Shown here: one piece after another, positions 6,391-44,053 of the stretch
Layout: each line of letters starts with the position of its first letter
Position numbering within the stretch: the stretch's first letter is position 1
From: Halorubrum sp. CSM-61
GTDB taxonomy: Archaea > Halobacteriota > Halobacteria > Halobacteriales > Haloferacaceae
Length of the DNA: 64,000 nucleotides
Assembly: GCF_003781945.1 (NCBI RefSeq)
Contig: NZ_RJJW01000002.1
Span: 124,015 to 188,014 of the forward strand
Direction of reading: 5' to 3'
Translations under genes and position numbers: made by a program
The notes under the pieces: model-generated
What the model saw: only the letters and a program-made list of their open reading frames with translations
Told to the model about the DNA's origin: nothing
The model's database searches: none

Positions 6391-6691
6391 CTTATAAATC
6401 GAACTGCGGTGGCGCGCGCCTCCGAGCGGCCGCCACCGGCGGCCGCGAGGAGCTCGTGCGAGGGACGCCGCGAGCGACCGGAGGGAGCGAGCGGCGAGGC
6501 TGGGGAGGTACGAGGCGCGGTTGCGGTGCGGTCGGGTGGGACTCAAAGGGGCAGCCGGCGAGGCGGGCGCAGGTGACGTAAGCACCGCAGGAACGAGCGC
6601 AACGAGTGACGAGGAGCGCAACGAGCGTGCGCCCGCCTCGCCGGCTGGGGCTTTGGAAGTGTTCGCCGTCTCGCCATTGGAGATTTATAAG
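6391..6691 (+). ncRNA. Structured dispersed repeat, copy A (core form), candidate ncRNA
   Basis: Shortest of three copies. TATA-like CTTATAAAT at 6391-6399, then the conserved GCGGTGGCGCGC block about 15 bases on. First hairpin: 6426-6434 with 6438-6446 (9 perfect pairs, loop ACC). Second hairpin: 6466-6471 with 6491-6496. Main stem: 6552-6571 with 6628-6647, 20 perfect pairs. Outside it, GGG faces GGG and CAAAG can pair with CTTTG, giving a symmetric internal loop closed by a short outer helix. The enclosed loop keeps the block GACGTAAGCACCGCA. A mirrored TTTATAAG ends the element at 6684-6691. It lies between ilvA and the following same-strand gene. Confidence 0.7.
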
Positions 6692-6774
6692 CGGATCAGC
6701 CGATCCTCAAACTACTATTCTCATATTTCTGTTCTGTAGAAAATACTATCAATGAAAAGTGAATTATCAGAGAC

Positions 6775-7155
6775 ATGGGTAACAGTTCCAAGACGGACCT
6801 ACAGCGAGACATCCTCCTCACGTGGTGGGAAAATCCGAACGCGACGAACAAGGAGATCGCGGACGCGTGTGACTGTTCGGCGTCGTACGTCAGCCAGATC
6901 AAGAACCGGTTCGACGACTACAACGAATTCGAAGCGATGATGGACAGACAGGACGCGGAGTTAGAGCAGATGTTCGGAGAGGGTATCTTCGGAAACAGTG
7001 AGACGGCACCGGCGGCAGTCGACCGGGGAGGACCGGGAGTCGCTGAACAGTGGAACGAGATCCCGAACAACATTCCGGGACTGTTGATCAAGCTCATTAT
7101 CGTGGTGGTACTCGGATACGCGGCGGTCCAAGTCGGGATGACGCTCTTTCTCTGA
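6775..7155 (+). CDS. Membrane-tethered helix-turn-helix protein
   Basis: 126 residues. Residues about 5-50 form a helix-turn-helix (Asn-Lys-Glu-Ile-Ala-Asp-Ala-Cys-Asp-Cys-Ser-Ala-Ser-Tyr-Val-Ser pattern) with the look of an archaeal winged or homeodomain-like DNA-binding unit. An acidic linker runs to a single hydrophobic helix at about 103-123 that ends the protein. This is the architecture of a small membrane-anchored DNA-binding protein with its HTH in the cytoplasm. The upstream 75 bases are AT-rich, unlike the surrounding DNA, and probably hold the promoter. No partner gene is adjacent; the target is unknown. Confidence 0.72.
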   Translation: MGNSSKTDLQRDILLTWWENPNATNKEIADACDCSASYVSQIKNRFDDYNEFEAMMDRQDAELEQMFGEGIFGNSETAPAAVDRGGPGVAEQWNEIPNNIPGLLIKLIIVVVLGYAAVQVGMTLFL

Positions 7156-7209
7156 CCTTTTAAGACCCCAAAGTCGGATAACGGATTGTCAGTCTGCTCG
7201 ATCCGACGA

Positions 7210-7217
7210 TTTAAAAC
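7210..7217 (+). promoter_or_regulatory. TATA box of cysS
   Basis: TTTAAAAC centred about 28 bases before the cysS ATG, the spacing expected for a leaderless haloarchaeal transcript. Confidence 0.5.
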
Positions 7218-7241
7218 TCTCACCCGAGCTACCACGTCGTA

Positions 7242-8738
7242 ATGAGTCTCGTCGTTACCGACACCCTGGAAGACGAGCGCGTCGAGTTCACGGCTGACGG
7301 CGACGTCACGCTGTACGTCTGCGGCCTGACGGTGTCGGACGACCCCCACCTCGGACACGCCCGCCTGTGGTTCCACGCCGACGTCCTCCACCGGTGGCTC
7401 GAACACGTCGGCTACGACGTGCGCCACGTCGAGAACGTCACCGACGTCAACGAGAAGATCACGGCCCGCGTCGGCGAGCGCGACGGGTGGACCGAAGAGC
7501 GCGACGTGGCCGAGGCGTTCACCGCGACCACCTTCGACGCGATGCGCGGGCTGAATCTGTTGCGCGCCGAGGTGTACCCCCGCGTCACCGAGCACGTCCC
7601 CGAGATCGTCGATCTCGTCGAGACGCTGGTCGAGAAGGGGTACGCCTACGAGTCGAACGGCTCCGTCTACTTCGACGTGACCGCGTTCGAGGAGTACGGG
7701 AAGCTCTCGAACCAGGACGTGGAGGAACTCGAAGCGCAGGGCGAGCCCGACGAGCGGTCCGAGAAGCGCAACCCGGCGGACTTCGCGCTGTGGAAGGCCG
7801 ACGGCGTGAGCGAGACCGCCGCGCGCGAGCACGCCAAACACGACCACGGCGAGTCGACGCCGTCGGGCGAGACGTGGGCGTCGCCGTGGAGCGAGGGGCG
7901 CCCGGGCTGGCACGTCGAGTGCTCGGCGATGTCGACGACGCATCTCGGCGACACCCTCGACATCCACATGGGCGGCCGGGATCTGGTCTTCCCTCACCAC
8001 GAGAACGAGATCGCGCAGTCGGAGGCCGCCACCGGCGAGACGTTCGCCCGTCACTGGCTCCACGTCGGCCTGCTGGCGATGGACGGCGAGAAGATGTCCT
8101 CCTCGATCGGCAACTTCTGGACCGTCCCGGACGCCTTAGAGGAGCTCGGCGTCAACGTCGTCCGCACCTTCTACGCCGGGGCCGCCTACCGCTCCGAGCA
8201 GGCGCTCACCGAGGAGACGATCAGCGAGGCCGAGGAGCGGTGGGAGCGCCTCTCGCGCACCTACGACCGCGCGGTCGCGGCGCTCGACTCCGTGGACGCT
8301 CAGGCGAAGGCCGAGGACGGCGAGTTCCGAGAGGCCGTCGAGACCGCCCGTGACGACTTCGCGAGCGCGATGAACGACGACCTGAACCTCCGGGAGGCGA
8401 CCGCGGCGCTTCTGGACCTCACCGACGCGGTGAACCGGCACGTGGACGGCGCGGGCGACGACACGGGTGCGGGAGACGCGTACGACTACCGCGCCCTCCG
8501 CGAGGCGGTCGAGGCGTTCGACGACCTCGCGGGCGACGTGCTCGGGCTCCAGTTCGAGTCGACGACCGACGGCGACGTGGACCTGGCCGGCGAGCTGGTC
8601 GACCTGATTCTTGACGTGCGCGAGGCCGAGCGCGAGGCCGGCAACTACGAGCGCGCCGACGAGCTCCGGGACGCGCTTCGCGAGGTCGGCGTCGAGATCG
8701 AGGACGGTGCCGACGGGGCGTCGTACCGGTTCGAGTGA
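7242..8738 (+). CDS. cysS: Cysteinyl-tRNA synthetase
   Basis: 498 residues, usual length. It charges tRNA-Cys with cysteine. The class I signature HIGH appears as His-Leu-Gly-His at 36-39 and the second signature Lys-Met-Ser-Ser-Ser starts at Lys284. A zinc site is suggested by Cys28 and later Cys/His residues including the Trp-His-Val-Glu-Cys-Ser segment near 224-229. The C-terminal anticodon-binding helical domain contains a short Gly/Asp/Ala-rich insertion near residue 405. It is transcribed singly with its own TATA box and probably no leader. Confidence 0.96.
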   Translation: MSLVVTDTLEDERVEFTADGDVTLYVCGLTVSDDPHLGHARLWFHADVLHRWLEHVGYDVRHVENVTDVNEKITARVGERDGWTEERDVAEAFTATTFDAMRGLNLLRAEVYPRVTEHVPEIVDLVETLVEKGYAYESNGSVYFDVTAFEEYGKLSNQDVEELEAQGEPDERSEKRNPADFALWKADGVSETAAREHAKHDHGESTPSGETWASPWSEGRPGWHVECSAMSTTHLGDTLDIHMGGRDLVFPHHENEIAQSEAATGETFARHWLHVGLLAMDGEKMSSSIGNFWTVPDALEELGVNVVRTFYAGAAYRSEQALTEETISEAEERWERLSRTYDRAVAALDSVDAQAKAEDGEFREAVETARDDFASAMNDDLNLREATAALLDLTDAVNRHVDGAGDDTGAGDAYDYRALREAVEAFDDLAGDVLGLQFESTTDGDVDLAGELVDLILDVREAEREAGNYERADELRDALREVGVEIEDGADGASYRFE

Positions 8739-14774: not shown

Positions 14775-17369
14775 ATGAGTCGGGGCCCCGAGCTGATCAT
14801 CACGGAGAAGGACAACGCGGCGCGTCGCATCGCCGACATCTTGAGCGGCGAGTCCGCGACGGCGGAGCGGGAGAACGACGTGAACGTGTACAAGTGGGGC
14901 GGCAAGCGCTGTATCGGCCTCTCGGGCCACGTCGTCGGCGTCGACTTCCCCGCCGAGTACAACGACTGGCGCGACGTGGAGCCGGTCGAGCTGATCGACG
15001 CGCCGGTCACGAAGGAGCCCACGCAGGAGGGGATCGTCGCCGCGCTCCGGAAGCTCGCGCGCAACGCCTCCCGGGTCGTCATCGCGACCGACTACGACCG
15101 CGAGGGAGAGCTGATCGGCAAGGAGGCGTACGAGCTGGTGCGCGAGGTGAACGAGGACGCGCCGATCGACCGGGTCCGGTTCTCCTCGATCACCGAAAAC
15201 GAGGTAAACGAGGCGTTCGCGAACCCCGACGAGCTCGACTTCGATCTCGCCGCCGCGGGCGAGGCCCGACAGGTGATCGACCTGACGTGGGGCGCGGCGC
15301 TCACCCGCTTCCTCTCGCTTTCCGCCCGCCAGCTCGGCGACGACTTCATCTCGGTCGGCCGGGTGCAGGGGCCGACCCTCAAGCTGATCGTCGACCGCGA
15401 GCGCGAGATCCAGGCGTTCGACCCCGAGGCTTACTGGGAGCTGTACGGGAACCTGACCAAGTCCGGCGGCGATCCCTTCGAGGCGCGCTACTTCTACTTA
15501 AACGACGAGGGCAACGAGGCCGAGCGCGTCTGGGACGGCGACGTCGCCGAGGTGCTCACGGAGGCGCTCGACGCGGCCGACGAGGCGGTCGTCGACGACG
15601 TGCGCCGCCGCACCCGTACCGACGACCCGCCGACCCCCTTCAACACCACGGCGTTCATCCGCGCCGCGGGCTCGCTCGGCTACTCCGCGCAGCGCGCGAT
15701 GTCGCTCGCGGAGGACCTGTACACCGCCGGCTACGTCACCTATCCGCGGACGGACAACACGGTGTACCCGGACGACCTCGACCCCGAAGAGCTGATCGAG
15801 GAGCTCTCGGCGGCCTCGACGTTCGGGACGGACGCGAAGGGCCTGCTGGAGCAAGACGAAATCGAACCCACCGAGGGCGACGAGGAGACGACCGACCACC
15901 CGCCGATCCACCCGACCGGGGAGCTCCCGTCCGCCTCCGACCTCTCGGAGGACGAGTGGGAGGTGTACGAGCTGATCGTCCGCCGCTTCCTCGCGACCTG
16001 CGCCGAGCCCGCGACGTGGGAGCGGCTCCGCGTCGTCGCGCTCGCGAACGGCGAGGCGACCGCGATCGCCGAGGGTGCGGACGGGCTCGCCGCCCTCCGG
16101 AACCCCGAGGAGGCGGCCGGTCCCGGCGAGCTCGTCGCCGACGGCGGGCTCCGCCTGAAGGCGAACGGGAAGCGCCTGCTGGAGGCCGGCTACCACGACG
16201 TGTACCCGTACCGCTCCAGCGACGAGCGGATCGTCCCGGACGTGGAAGTCGGCGAGACGCTCTCGCTCACCGATCGGCGGACCGACGCGAAGGAGACCCA
16301 GCCGCCCCGTCGCTACGGCCAGTCCCGGCTCATCGAGGAGATGGAGAAGCGCGGCGTCGGCACGAAGGCGACCCGCCACCGCACCTTAGAGAAGCTGTAC
16401 GACCGCAACTACATCGAGAGCGACCCGCCGCGACCCACCCGACTCGCGGAGGCGGTCGTCGAGGCCGCCGAGGAGTTCGCGGAGCACGTCGTCAGCGAGG
16501 AGATGACCGCCCAGCTCGAGCGCGACATGCAGGCGATCGCCGCCGGCGAGAAGGAGTACGACGAGGTGACGGAGGCGTCCCGCGAGCTCCTCGACCGCGT
16601 GTTTGACGACCTCACCGAGTCGCGCGAGGCGGTCGGCGACCACCTCCAGAAGTCGCTGAAGGCGGACAAGACGCTCGGCCCCTGTCCCGAGTGCGGCGAG
16701 GACCTCCTCGTTCGGAAGTCGCGGCAGGGGTCGTACTTCGTCGGCTGCGACGGCTACCCCGACTGCGAGTACACCCTGCCGCTCCCCTCCACCGGGAAGC
16801 CGCTCATCCTCGACGAGACCTGCGAGGACCACGAGCTCCGACACGTGAAGATGCTCGCGGGCCGGAAGACGTTCGTCCACGGCTGCCCGCAGTGCAAGGC
16901 CGACGAGGCCGACGAGCAGGAGGACGAGGTGATCGGGGTCTGCCCCGAATGTGGTGAAGAACACGGGGGGGAACTGGCCATCAAACGCCTCCGCTCCGGC
17001 TCCCGGCTCGTCGGCTGCACGCGCTACCCCGACTGCGACTACTCGCTGCCCCTCCCCCGGCGCGGCGAGATCGAGGTCACCGACGAGACCTGCGAGGAGC
17101 ACGGCCTCCCGCACCTCCGGGTCCACTCCGGCGACGAGCCGTGGGAGCTCGGCTGTCCCATCTGCAACTACCGGGAGTTCACCGCCAGACAGGAGGGCTC
17201 GGAGCTCCAGACCGTCGAGGGGATCGGCGAGAAGACCGCAGAGAAGCTCCAAGACGCCGGCGTCGACGGCGTCGACGACCTCAAGTCGGTCGACCCGGAC
17301 GAGCTGGCGGCCGACGTCGACGGCGTGGGCGCGGACACGGTCCGCGACTGGCAGGCGAAGGCGGACTGA
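14775..17369 (+). CDS. topA: DNA topoisomerase I (type IA)
   Basis: 864 residues. It relaxes negative supercoils by single-strand passage. Toprim domain at about 1-145 (Glu-Lys-Asp-Asn-Ala-Ala; Asp-Tyr-Asp-Arg-Glu-Gly-Glu), then the type IA core with active-site Tyr323 in Tyr-Pro-Arg-Thr-Asp-Asn. At least three C-terminal four-cysteine zinc modules follow (about 636-780, e.g. Cys-Pro-Glu-Cys-Gly), and the protein ends with a helix-hairpin-helix pair (about 815-860, Val-Glu-Gly-Ile-Gly-Glu-Lys-Thr-Ala). ATG at 14775 is chosen because it directly precedes the Toprim strand; the frame is open further upstream, to 14694. Single-gene unit. Confidence 0.96.
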   Translation: MSRGPELIITEKDNAARRIADILSGESATAERENDVNVYKWGGKRCIGLSGHVVGVDFPAEYNDWRDVEPVELIDAPVTKEPTQEGIVAALRKLARNASRVVIATDYDREGELIGKEAYELVREVNEDAPIDRVRFSSITENEVNEAFANPDELDFDLAAAGEARQVIDLTWGAALTRFLSLSARQLGDDFISVGRVQGPTLKLIVDREREIQAFDPEAYWELYGNLTKSGGDPFEARYFYLNDEGNEAERVWDGDVAEVLTEALDAADEAVVDDVRRRTRTDDPPTPFNTTAFIRAAGSLGYSAQRAMSLAEDLYTAGYVTYPRTDNTVYPDDLDPEELIEELSAASTFGTDAKGLLEQDEIEPTEGDEETTDHPPIHPTGELPSASDLSEDEWEVYELIVRRFLATCAEPATWERLRVVALANGEATAIAEGADGLAALRNPEEAAGPGELVADGGLRLKANGKRLLEAGYHDVYPYRSSDERIVPDVEVGETLSLTDRRTDAKETQPPRRYGQSRLIEEMEKRGVGTKATRHRTLEKLYDRNYIESDPPRPTRLAEAVVEAAEEFAEHVVSEEMTAQLERDMQAIAAGEKEYDEVTEASRELLDRVFDDLTESREAVGDHLQKSLKADKTLGPCPECGEDLLVRKSRQGSYFVGCDGYPDCEYTLPLPSTGKPLILDETCEDHELRHVKMLAGRKTFVHGCPQCKADEADEQEDEVIGVCPECGEEHGGELAIKRLRSGSRLVGCTRYPDCDYSLPLPRRGEIEVTDETCEEHGLPHLRVHSGDEPWELGCPICNYREFTARQEGSELQTVEGIGEKTAEKLQDAGVDGVDDLKSVDPDELAADVDGVGADTVRDWQAKAD

Positions 17370-41746: not shown

Positions 41747-41953
41747 GACCGGAAGGCGGGCGCTCCGGTACGCGTCACGGTGATCAGTATTCGGCTCGAC
41801 GATCGGCGCAATCGGACGGACTTCCGGATCGTGCTCCGTAGACTCTCGCGAGAGAACGGATTCGGTCAATACAGGAGATAAACTGATCAATATGTGGTAA
41901 CGTCTCTATACTTATACAGCCGTGAGATGTCTTTGGAACCACAGAGTCGGATA

Positions 41954-42439
41954 ATGACGAAGCATACATGTCCAACGTGCGGGCGAGATGATTTCGCGCG
42001 TAATATCGATATGAAGGCTCACCACACGATTGCGCACGGTGAGAGTCTCGTTGATCAGGACAACCCATGCGAATGTCCGATGTGCGGTGAGGTGTTTGCA
42101 AGCGAACCAGGGATGAAAGCTCACCACGCCCTCATTCACGCAGAAAGTATCGCAGAGTCACGAAGTCTTGGCAAATCGACCCGTCAAACTGTTCTGGATC
42201 GAGATGACAATCGATGCCAGAGATGTAATATCAAAGTCGCAGCAGGCAGCGAGAACGGAGCTGGGTTTCAGCTCCACCATATCGTTCCGTTTTCAGCGGG
42301 TGGCCCAAACCATCCGGATAATCTTGTCACTCTTTGTAACGATTGCCACACACTGGCACATCAGCAAATGAAGAATCTTGTCGAGGAACATACTGAATTG
42401 CTCGATGAACTCCGAACCATCGTGTGCGACACCAAGTAA
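41954..42439 (+). CDS. Double C2H2 zinc-finger HNH nuclease-like protein
   Basis: 161 residues from ATG 41954. Two C2H2 fingers come first: Cys6-Cys9-His23/24-His28 and Cys41-Cys44-His57/58-His62, both with the eukaryote-like Cys-x2-Cys-x12-His spacing. The HNH part follows: Cys88-x2-Cys91, His108-His109-Ile-Val-Pro, Asn123, Cys128-x2-Cys131-His132, His136, i.e. a zinc-stabilised HNH fold. Two earlier in-frame starts (41894 and 41927) exist, but the TATA-like CTATACTTATAC at 41905-41917 lies too close to them. Local DNA is AT-richer than neighbours, a sign of transfer. Probably a DNA-cutting enzyme or defence nuclease. Confidence 0.8.
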   Translation: MTKHTCPTCGRDDFARNIDMKAHHTIAHGESLVDQDNPCECPMCGEVFASEPGMKAHHALIHAESIAESRSLGKSTRQTVLDRDDNRCQRCNIKVAAGSENGAGFQLHHIVPFSAGGPNHPDNLVTLCNDCHTLAHQQMKNLVEEHTELLDELRTIVCDTK

Positions 42440-42545
42440 AAATTCAATAAATCCTATCCAGTATGTGGGTAGGGATACAGCAATTCATCGGGGTTGGGAG
42501 GTCAATTGGCGGTAGTTTGATTTTGATTGTCCATGATTGTGATGT

Positions 42546-43895
42546 ATGAGCCAAAGTATTGGGCGTGAATTAGCGGCTCTGCGACAGAAGCTGGATAGGT
42601 TACCAGAGACAGAGGAGCCACCGCCAACAACGTTACAAGTGCTCAATCGGAGTACCCAGGAACGCGCTTGGCAGCAGTTCTTCGTACACTTCCTGACTCC
42701 TGAGGCACCACATGGTCTTGATCACGCGGTATTAGAACATGTCTTGTCCGGTTTAGCTGAGAGAATGGATATGGAGTTCTCGTTTTCACGGTTCGAAATT
42801 GAGGACATTCGGATCGCACAAGAGGTGACGACGGACGCCGGAATTCCGGACGTCATTATGTGGGTACCTGAGGAGTGGTACATCTGTTGGGAACTGAAGG
42901 TACACGCTTCAGAGGGTCATGACCAGACTGATCGGTACGTGAGCGTGGATTCGTTTAATGGCATTGGGCTTGCGAAAGATGACATGCCGGCGGAGGGCCA
43001 TCATTACGTCTTTTTAGCGCCGGAAGCGGCGTCGCCGCCGACCGCGAATGAGTTCGCTCATGTTTCATGGGAGTGGTTTGTCGATGAGTTGCAGGCTTTT
43101 CTGGCGGCGAGTTACGATGCATACCCTGCACGAACTACGGCACAGCTGAAAGATTTCGCGGATACAGTTCGGAGCGAACTCACCATGACAGAATACCAAG
43201 AAAACCAGCGAGAAATGGTAGAACAGTACGTTGAACACCATGATGTGATCACGGAAATTGAAGCAGCATTCGATGACGCATGGACTGAGTTTCAACAGAC
43301 ATGGGGGACGCGATTAGCAAATACCATAGAGACGGCAACGCTTGATAATGACTCAGACGTGTCCGACAAGTATGCTGCCGTAGAGTTGAAGATGGGTTCA
43401 GGGAAACAACGGCAATGGACATTCCGACAGGGGAGCCCAGATTGGTCATGGATATTCCCTCGTGAGTGGTGGCAGCGATTGGATACTGGACAGCCGATAA
43501 CGAAAACACCGAAACCGAATGCAAGAGTGGGATTTCTGCATCGTCTTGAATGGGATCGGGAAACAGCGGTCGGCGATCGGACACTTGTCGTGTACGTTCG
43601 GAACGCGCCATCTGGGCACGAAGACTTCTACAATGGGTTCGCAAAGCGTATTACAGAAGCAACGACTGAAATTGAATCGGCACTTTCGGCAACAAACTTC
43701 ACCATGACTGGAAACAAGTCAAACATCATACGCGGAGAATACGAAATTGAAGTGGAGCGTCACGACGGATTCTTTGACGCGTACTTGCATGCGTTAGCTC
43801 GTGCACTCAATGAAGGCGCACTGTCGAACCCAGCATTGGTCGAGATGATCGACCGTCTATACGAAGACACGATTCAGAATGATGTATTCCTCTAA
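42546..43895 (+). CDS. PD-(D/E)XK nuclease-superfamily protein
   Basis: 449 residues. The motif Gly-Ile-Pro-Asp102-Val-Ile-Met-Trp, then Trp-Glu116-Leu-Lys118-Val, is the D...ExK active-site pattern of PD-(D/E)XK nucleases. The rest is helical and acidic with a beta-rich C-terminal half; no helicase or methylase domain is visible. DNA composition is clearly different: bases 43201-43260 hold 25 G/C of 60, and codons end in A/T far more often than in the flanking genes. It lies 106 bases after the HNH gene on the same strand. Together they look like an acquired accessory islet, possibly restriction or phage defence. No transposase or integrase is next to it. Confidence 0.7.
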   Translation: MSQSIGRELAALRQKLDRLPETEEPPPTTLQVLNRSTQERAWQQFFVHFLTPEAPHGLDHAVLEHVLSGLAERMDMEFSFSRFEIEDIRIAQEVTTDAGIPDVIMWVPEEWYICWELKVHASEGHDQTDRYVSVDSFNGIGLAKDDMPAEGHHYVFLAPEAASPPTANEFAHVSWEWFVDELQAFLAASYDAYPARTTAQLKDFADTVRSELTMTEYQENQREMVEQYVEHHDVITEIEAAFDDAWTEFQQTWGTRLANTIETATLDNDSDVSDKYAAVELKMGSGKQRQWTFRQGSPDWSWIFPREWWQRLDTGQPITKTPKPNARVGFLHRLEWDRETAVGDRTLVVYVRNAPSGHEDFYNGFAKRITEATTEIESALSATNFTMTGNKSNIIRGEYEIEVERHDGFFDAYLHALARALNEGALSNPALVEMIDRLYEDTIQNDVFL

Positions 43896-44053
43896 GAGAA
43901 ATCGTGCAATTGGCACGTACCATTAACCAGCCGTTTCAGGTTGTCTATGTCTGAAGAGTAGGATTTCCACGGAGCCGTATTGGTCGCTCCCCGTCCGGGT
44001 TCGACCGGACGTGCGACGCGGAATCCGATCCGGGGTCGCGAACCTCCCCGCGC

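Follow-up and report, generated by a model that had tools for sequence, protein, structure and literature searches.

A foreign low-G+C islet in Halorubrum sp. CSM-61 carries a zinc-finger HNH gene and a PD-(D/E)XK gene akin to HRAMP-linked nucleases: candidate defence cargo

The window analysed here is a 64,000-nt stretch of Halorubrum sp. CSM-61 contig NZ_RJJW01000002.1, and coordinates are positions in this window unless another contig or locus is named (Table 1). It contains a low-G+C islet of two intact plus-strand genes, A (a zinc-finger HNH protein) and then B (a PD-(D/E)XK protein), with a spacer of 106 bases between them (42440-42545). The original prediction, made from the sequence alone, had described the same two genes, strand and spacing exactly, and its HNH and PD-(D/E)XK assignments are borne out by the Pfam matches of Table 1, that of B lying above the curated cut-off. 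It had also noted the lack of a transposase, correctly; searches of the islet gave no tRNA or known RNA family either. For gene A, we use the start codon backed by relatives, rather than that of the mechanical ORF, which begins earlier, at 41894.

Table 1. Features of the islet and its left flank, as positions in the 64,000-nt window.
Feature	Position	Strand	Basis
Low-GC islet	41835..43980 (approximate edges, each +/- about 20-40 bases)	.	G+C steps and flank homology
Preserved ancestral flank stretch, ~32 bases	41770..41801	.	90-94% match to L087 and L088
Gene A, two C2H2-like zinc fingers plus HNH nuclease, 161 aa	41954..42439	+	Pfam PF01844 E 7e-14; PDB search; homologues
Zinc finger 1 of A, CPTCGRDDFARNIDMKAHHTIAH	41969..42037	+	Cys/His kept in all homologues
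Zinc finger 2 of A, CPMCGEVFASEPGMKAHHALIH	42074..42139	+	Sub-threshold zf-C2H2 match; kept in most homologues
HNH domain of A, CQRC ... HHIVPFSAGGPNHPDNLVTLCNDCH	42215..42364	+	PF01844, residues 88-137
Gene B, PD-(D/E)XK nuclease, PDDEXK_4 / PADLOC PDC-S26, 449 aa	42546..43895	+	PF14281 E 1e-6; PDC-S26 E 4.6e-15
Nuclease domain of B, residues 28-213	42627..43184	+	Alignment of 23 relatives; model and fold comparison
C-terminal domain of B, residues 233-449, compact alpha/beta	43242..43892	+	AlphaFold2 mean pLDDT 93

The G+C content of the islet (41834-43980) is 49.7%, versus 70.5% for the remainder of the window, where the next-lowest stretch of equal length (2147 bases) has 64.4%; the two 60-base counts first used to draw attention to the islet, 25 at 43201-43260 and 46 at 15241-15300, are exact. 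Third-codon-position G+C is 0.49 in gene A and 0.52 in gene B, as compared to 0.92-0.97 in six flanking genes. At the left edge the 60-base G+C count falls from 38 to 26 from 41800 to 41840, at the right edge it rises from 34 to 43 from 43940 to 43980, and homology of the flanks to other Halorubrum genomes stops near 41833 and restarts near 43966-43985. The span of 41750-43950 originally given thus needs slight adjustment, the left edge lying inside it (near 41835) and the right edge outside it (near 43980). Composition and codon-position signature mark the islet as foreign, horizontally acquired DNA, and its still un-ameliorated composition suggests a recent arrival. The second-lowest G+C pocket of the window (6501-7500, 0.588) is a separate feature, with a small HTH-plus-membrane-segment protein encoded on the plus strand at 6775-7155.

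An SDR gene and a gene for a small membrane protein flank the islet. Just outside its left edge, a short stretch has its counterpart immediately upstream of an HTH gene in two relatives (L087 and L088), and this HTH gene is absent from the window genome; the gene is missing while the flank stretch is kept, so the islet occupies the place of lost host genes. At the same site, two congeners (G065 and G248) have APH-like kinase, acyl-CoA-dehydrogenase-like and HTH regulator genes, while in another (G194) the SDR gene directly abuts a TadC-like gene with nothing between, these gene names being read from the sequences rather than taken from profile matches. The site is itself variable among Halorubrum (L087:2919-5940, L088:1230-4305), with kinase-like, acyl-CoA-dehydrogenase-like and HTH genes, or no genes.

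Signs of several routes of entry were looked for. The whole window has zero tRNA genes, which leaves no footing for tRNA-linked integration; the best match between the edges is at the level of shuffled sequence, and a repeat search found no transposon-type terminal repeats, inverted or direct. No target duplication was seen at the islet edges, which are blurred, with host genes missing at the site. A viral origin was rejected: gene B was not found in phage records or viral contigs, gene A was not found in viral contigs, and phages gave distant HNH matches only.

Six relatives of A, at 44-73% identity, occur among 391 haloarchaeal genomes, one per species, in which our class-wide searches scored the best candidates per genome; HNH matches of any kind are found in 285 of the 391. 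The HNH motif and the finger Cys/His residues are conserved in a seven-sequence alignment of A, with a truncated or frameshifted sequence in one relative (G267). In a PDB search, the fingers match multi-finger zinc proteins, while the best solved relative of the HNH part is McrA (5-methylcytosine-specific restriction enzyme A). The surroundings of the six relatives differ from each other, and none has B nearby. A is probably an independent HNH nuclease, guided by its zinc fingers and riding as mobile cargo.

Homing enzymes are common among small free-standing HNH proteins, and A might be a selfish homing-type endonuclease responsible for the insertion of the islet, with B as a passenger or a neighbour from the same event. 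That its relatives occupy variable regions of mobile appearance, in one case next to phage tail-like genes, and that haloviruses have relatives of its HNH part, would fit such an origin. However, the congener sites differ by several genes instead of presenting a clean insertion, neither the duplication nor the repeats sought above were seen at the blurred edges, and A has its own spacers in the islet and interrupts no gene; we judge a homing origin improbable.

Gene B scores 29.3 bits against PF14281 (cut-off 22.3), a profile matched by all 16 aligned family members, and matches eight PDC-S26 models, the best of which is given in Table 1. An alignment of 23 relatives shows invariant E39, D102 and E116-x-K118, plus Q127-x-x-x-Y131; E39, D102, E116, K118 and Y131 do not vary in either of two alignments. 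With its catalytic residues thus invariant, the enzyme should be active. AlphaFold2 gives a fair model of the whole protein (pLDDT 82) and a very good one of the C-terminal domain alone. B has no sequence match in the PDB, and neither half gave a firm match among solved structures. For the nuclease part, LmuA, McrC, Can2/Card1 and SduA are among many PD-(D/E)XK folds at Z about 5-6.5, too weak to choose a single closest one; for the C-terminal domain, resemblance to DUF1054 proteins, to the secretion-chaperone/YbjN fold or to the McrB DNA-binding domain is weak (Z at most 6.2) and is not counted as evidence.

Relatives of B were found in 85 of the 391 haloarchaeal genomes and on 16 plasmids of a plasmid collection. 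Two B-family nucleases, about 27% identical, lie <3 kb apart in G224 and in Haloarcula amylovorans (L063:8846-12865, L170:5328-9341). B relatives are mostly in larger islands, and this, together with the loss of host genes at the same place, would be expected if the islet were the decaying, non-functional relic of a larger defence island since lost. Both reading frames are intact, though, with the catalytic residues retained; the un-ameliorated composition points to a recent arrival, and the broken copies that do exist in the family (e.g. in G263 and G313) look different from B. A relic is thus very unlikely.

The five nearest relatives of B, at 63-68% identity, connect it to HRAMP (haloarchaeal RAMP), an array-less type III CRISPR derivative of which HNH and PD-(D/E)XK nucleases are typical associates, as described in passages of PMC12669027 and PMC8730458. 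We identified clusters as HRAMP by their gene content, by weak profile matches and by the passages of these published descriptions; genes in relatives were called with a simple script. Three genomes (G373, G188 and G095) have a complete cluster, in which genes for Cas7-like, unknown and Cas5-like (weak Cmr3 match) proteins, for a DEDDh exonuclease and for an HNH protein lie upstream of B. Several members of the B clade close an HRAMP locus as its final gene. Four of the five nearest relatives sit downstream of an HNH protein unlike A. Halorubrum vacuolatum (G347, L062:7318-10890) has lost the Cas7-like, unknown, Cas5-like and DEDDh genes but retains the HNH gene and B together with a small flanking gene. 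Elsewhere the arrangement is looser: in G224, the HRAMP cluster is about 10-12 kb from B, and an HNH-like gene lies on the opposite strand beside the second B-type gene; beside the clade member of Natronococcus pandeyae there is no HRAMP and no HNH gene.

In our tree, the window B falls within an eight-member clade (SH-aLRT 99) together with HRAMP-linked members, and by this phylogeny we assign it to an HRAMP-linked nuclease clade. The three deepest branches of this clade form one three-way split, and the window B may branch at the base; if basal, it may never have belonged to an HRAMP locus. No HRAMP core genes (Cas5-like, Cas7-like or third protein) lie beside the islet. In the whole window genome, the HRAMP Cas7 query has no match at E <= 1, while finding its target in 104 of the 391 genomes, and the HRAMP Cas5 query has no match either, while the same search is strong in G188, G095, G373 and G224. 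A homologue of the HRAMP DEDDh exonuclease (53%) is encoded on another contig of this genome lacking HRAMP Cas5 and Cas7 (G000:C15:62147-62773).

HRAMP Cas7 occurs in 36 of 75 listed genomes with B homologues versus 104 of 391 overall, more than expected (P = 7e-6). Of 88 B loci, 21 are <=60 kb from HRAMP Cas7, where about 2 would be expected; since these tests ignore the shared ancestry of the genomes and the expected number comes from rough averages, the association is to be read as strong rather than exact. The ~30-kb spacing between distant B homologues and HRAMP was rejected as a conserved gene cluster: the intervening genes are unrelated, leaving shared islands only. In one such island (G294; L193, L194), between a B homologue and HRAMP, there are tRNA-guanine-transglycosylase-like and preQ0-pathway-like genes that by eye resemble a 7-deazaguanine DNA modification (Dpd) system.

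Within 1.6 kb, an HNH gene is found upstream on the same strand in 4/5 of the nearest B relatives, versus on either side in 4/75 of the others (Fisher P = 2e-4, again a strong rather than an exact value, as shared ancestry is ignored). A neighbourhood that is common in the B clade, and that outlived loss of the HRAMP core once, makes joint action of A and B conceivable: the two could form a true two-gene defence module, in which the zinc-finger HNH protein replaced an HRAMP-type HNH partner and both serve one response, e.g. a nick by A and a cut by B. The close, same-strand placement of the two genes and their alike composition agree with such a module, as do the HNH genes of the nearest relatives and the retention of HNH and B in H. 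vacuolatum, which indicates that the pair can outlast Cas genes. Against it, A shows no clear orthology to the HRAMP HNH proteins, which it matches in the HNH domain only (~39% over 66-75 residues), and is of another HNH subfamily; clade members in G224 and N. pandeyae are without an adjacent same-strand HNH gene; and conserved co-occurrence, suggested at the outset as a check, failed, with A and B adjacent in 1 of the 391 genomes and the close relatives of A solitary. We hold a joint module to be rather unlikely, a dedicated two-component A-B system being possible but unsupported.

A bolder proposal would make HNH plus PD-(D/E)XK pairs into reduced, Cas-free descendants of HRAMP that have shed the core at least two times (in the window genome and in H. 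vacuolatum) and persist as defence modules with new targeting, here by zinc fingers; we offer it as a long shot.

The explanation that we favour, with reasonable though limited confidence, is that the islet is horizontally acquired defence cargo, in which B comes from an HRAMP-linked clade and now stands without the Cas5/Cas7 core, A is independently mobile, and the two need not act together. The cargo would have replaced host genes between the SDR and small membrane-protein genes. B probably serves in defence as a DNA nuclease, either by itself or via a C-terminal sensor: as a metal-dependent PD-(D/E)XK enzyme that stands without a Cas5/Cas7-like core, it probably acts alone, and it might cut incoming viral or plasmid DNA or kill the infected cell, its activity being triggered when a target or partner is recognised by the C-terminal domain. 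A would be an HNH nuclease steered to DNA by its two zinc fingers, and the two genes may be neighbours mainly because both travel as mobile cargo. The label of candidate defence module given to the islet at first is therefore reasonable with respect to the defence link (membership of B in PDC-S26, and homologues clustered with HRAMP loci) and to the two nuclease folds side by side, but not with respect to a conserved two-component system.

The single-gene candidates of PADLOC stem from guilt-by-embedding, and most of them await testing (PMC12988326), and our literature search found no functional test of any PDC-S26 member. One of these candidates, PDC-S26, is now tied statistically to HRAMP loci across 391 genomes. 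The islet and the H. vacuolatum locus supply natural nucleases without a CRISPR-like core, which should be useful in addressing the stand-alone role of HRAMP nucleases.

Among the closest known systems, HRAMP resembles the islet in two respects: the downstream nuclease gene of its clusters is among the nearest relatives of B, and there, too, B is preceded by a same-strand HNH gene. The pairing had been thought to match no named system, but HRAMP nuclease sets already pair HNH with PD-(D/E)XK, so the general combination of HNH with this type of PD-(D/E)XK gene is not new, while the exact A-B pair is found nowhere else in the 391 genomes. The islet differs from HRAMP in standing apart from core genes, in a genome without Cas5 or Cas7, and in having an HNH protein of a different, zinc-finger type. 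B agrees with PADLOC PDC-S26 and PF14281 in matching eight models of the former and, above its cut-off, the profile of the latter; PDC-S26 is defined as a single-gene family, however, whereas in the islet an HNH gene adjoins. A resembles McrA-type and free-standing haloarchaeal and haloviral HNH proteins in its canonical HNH motif with a CxxC pair, but carries two C2H2-like fingers where McrA has its DNA-reading part.
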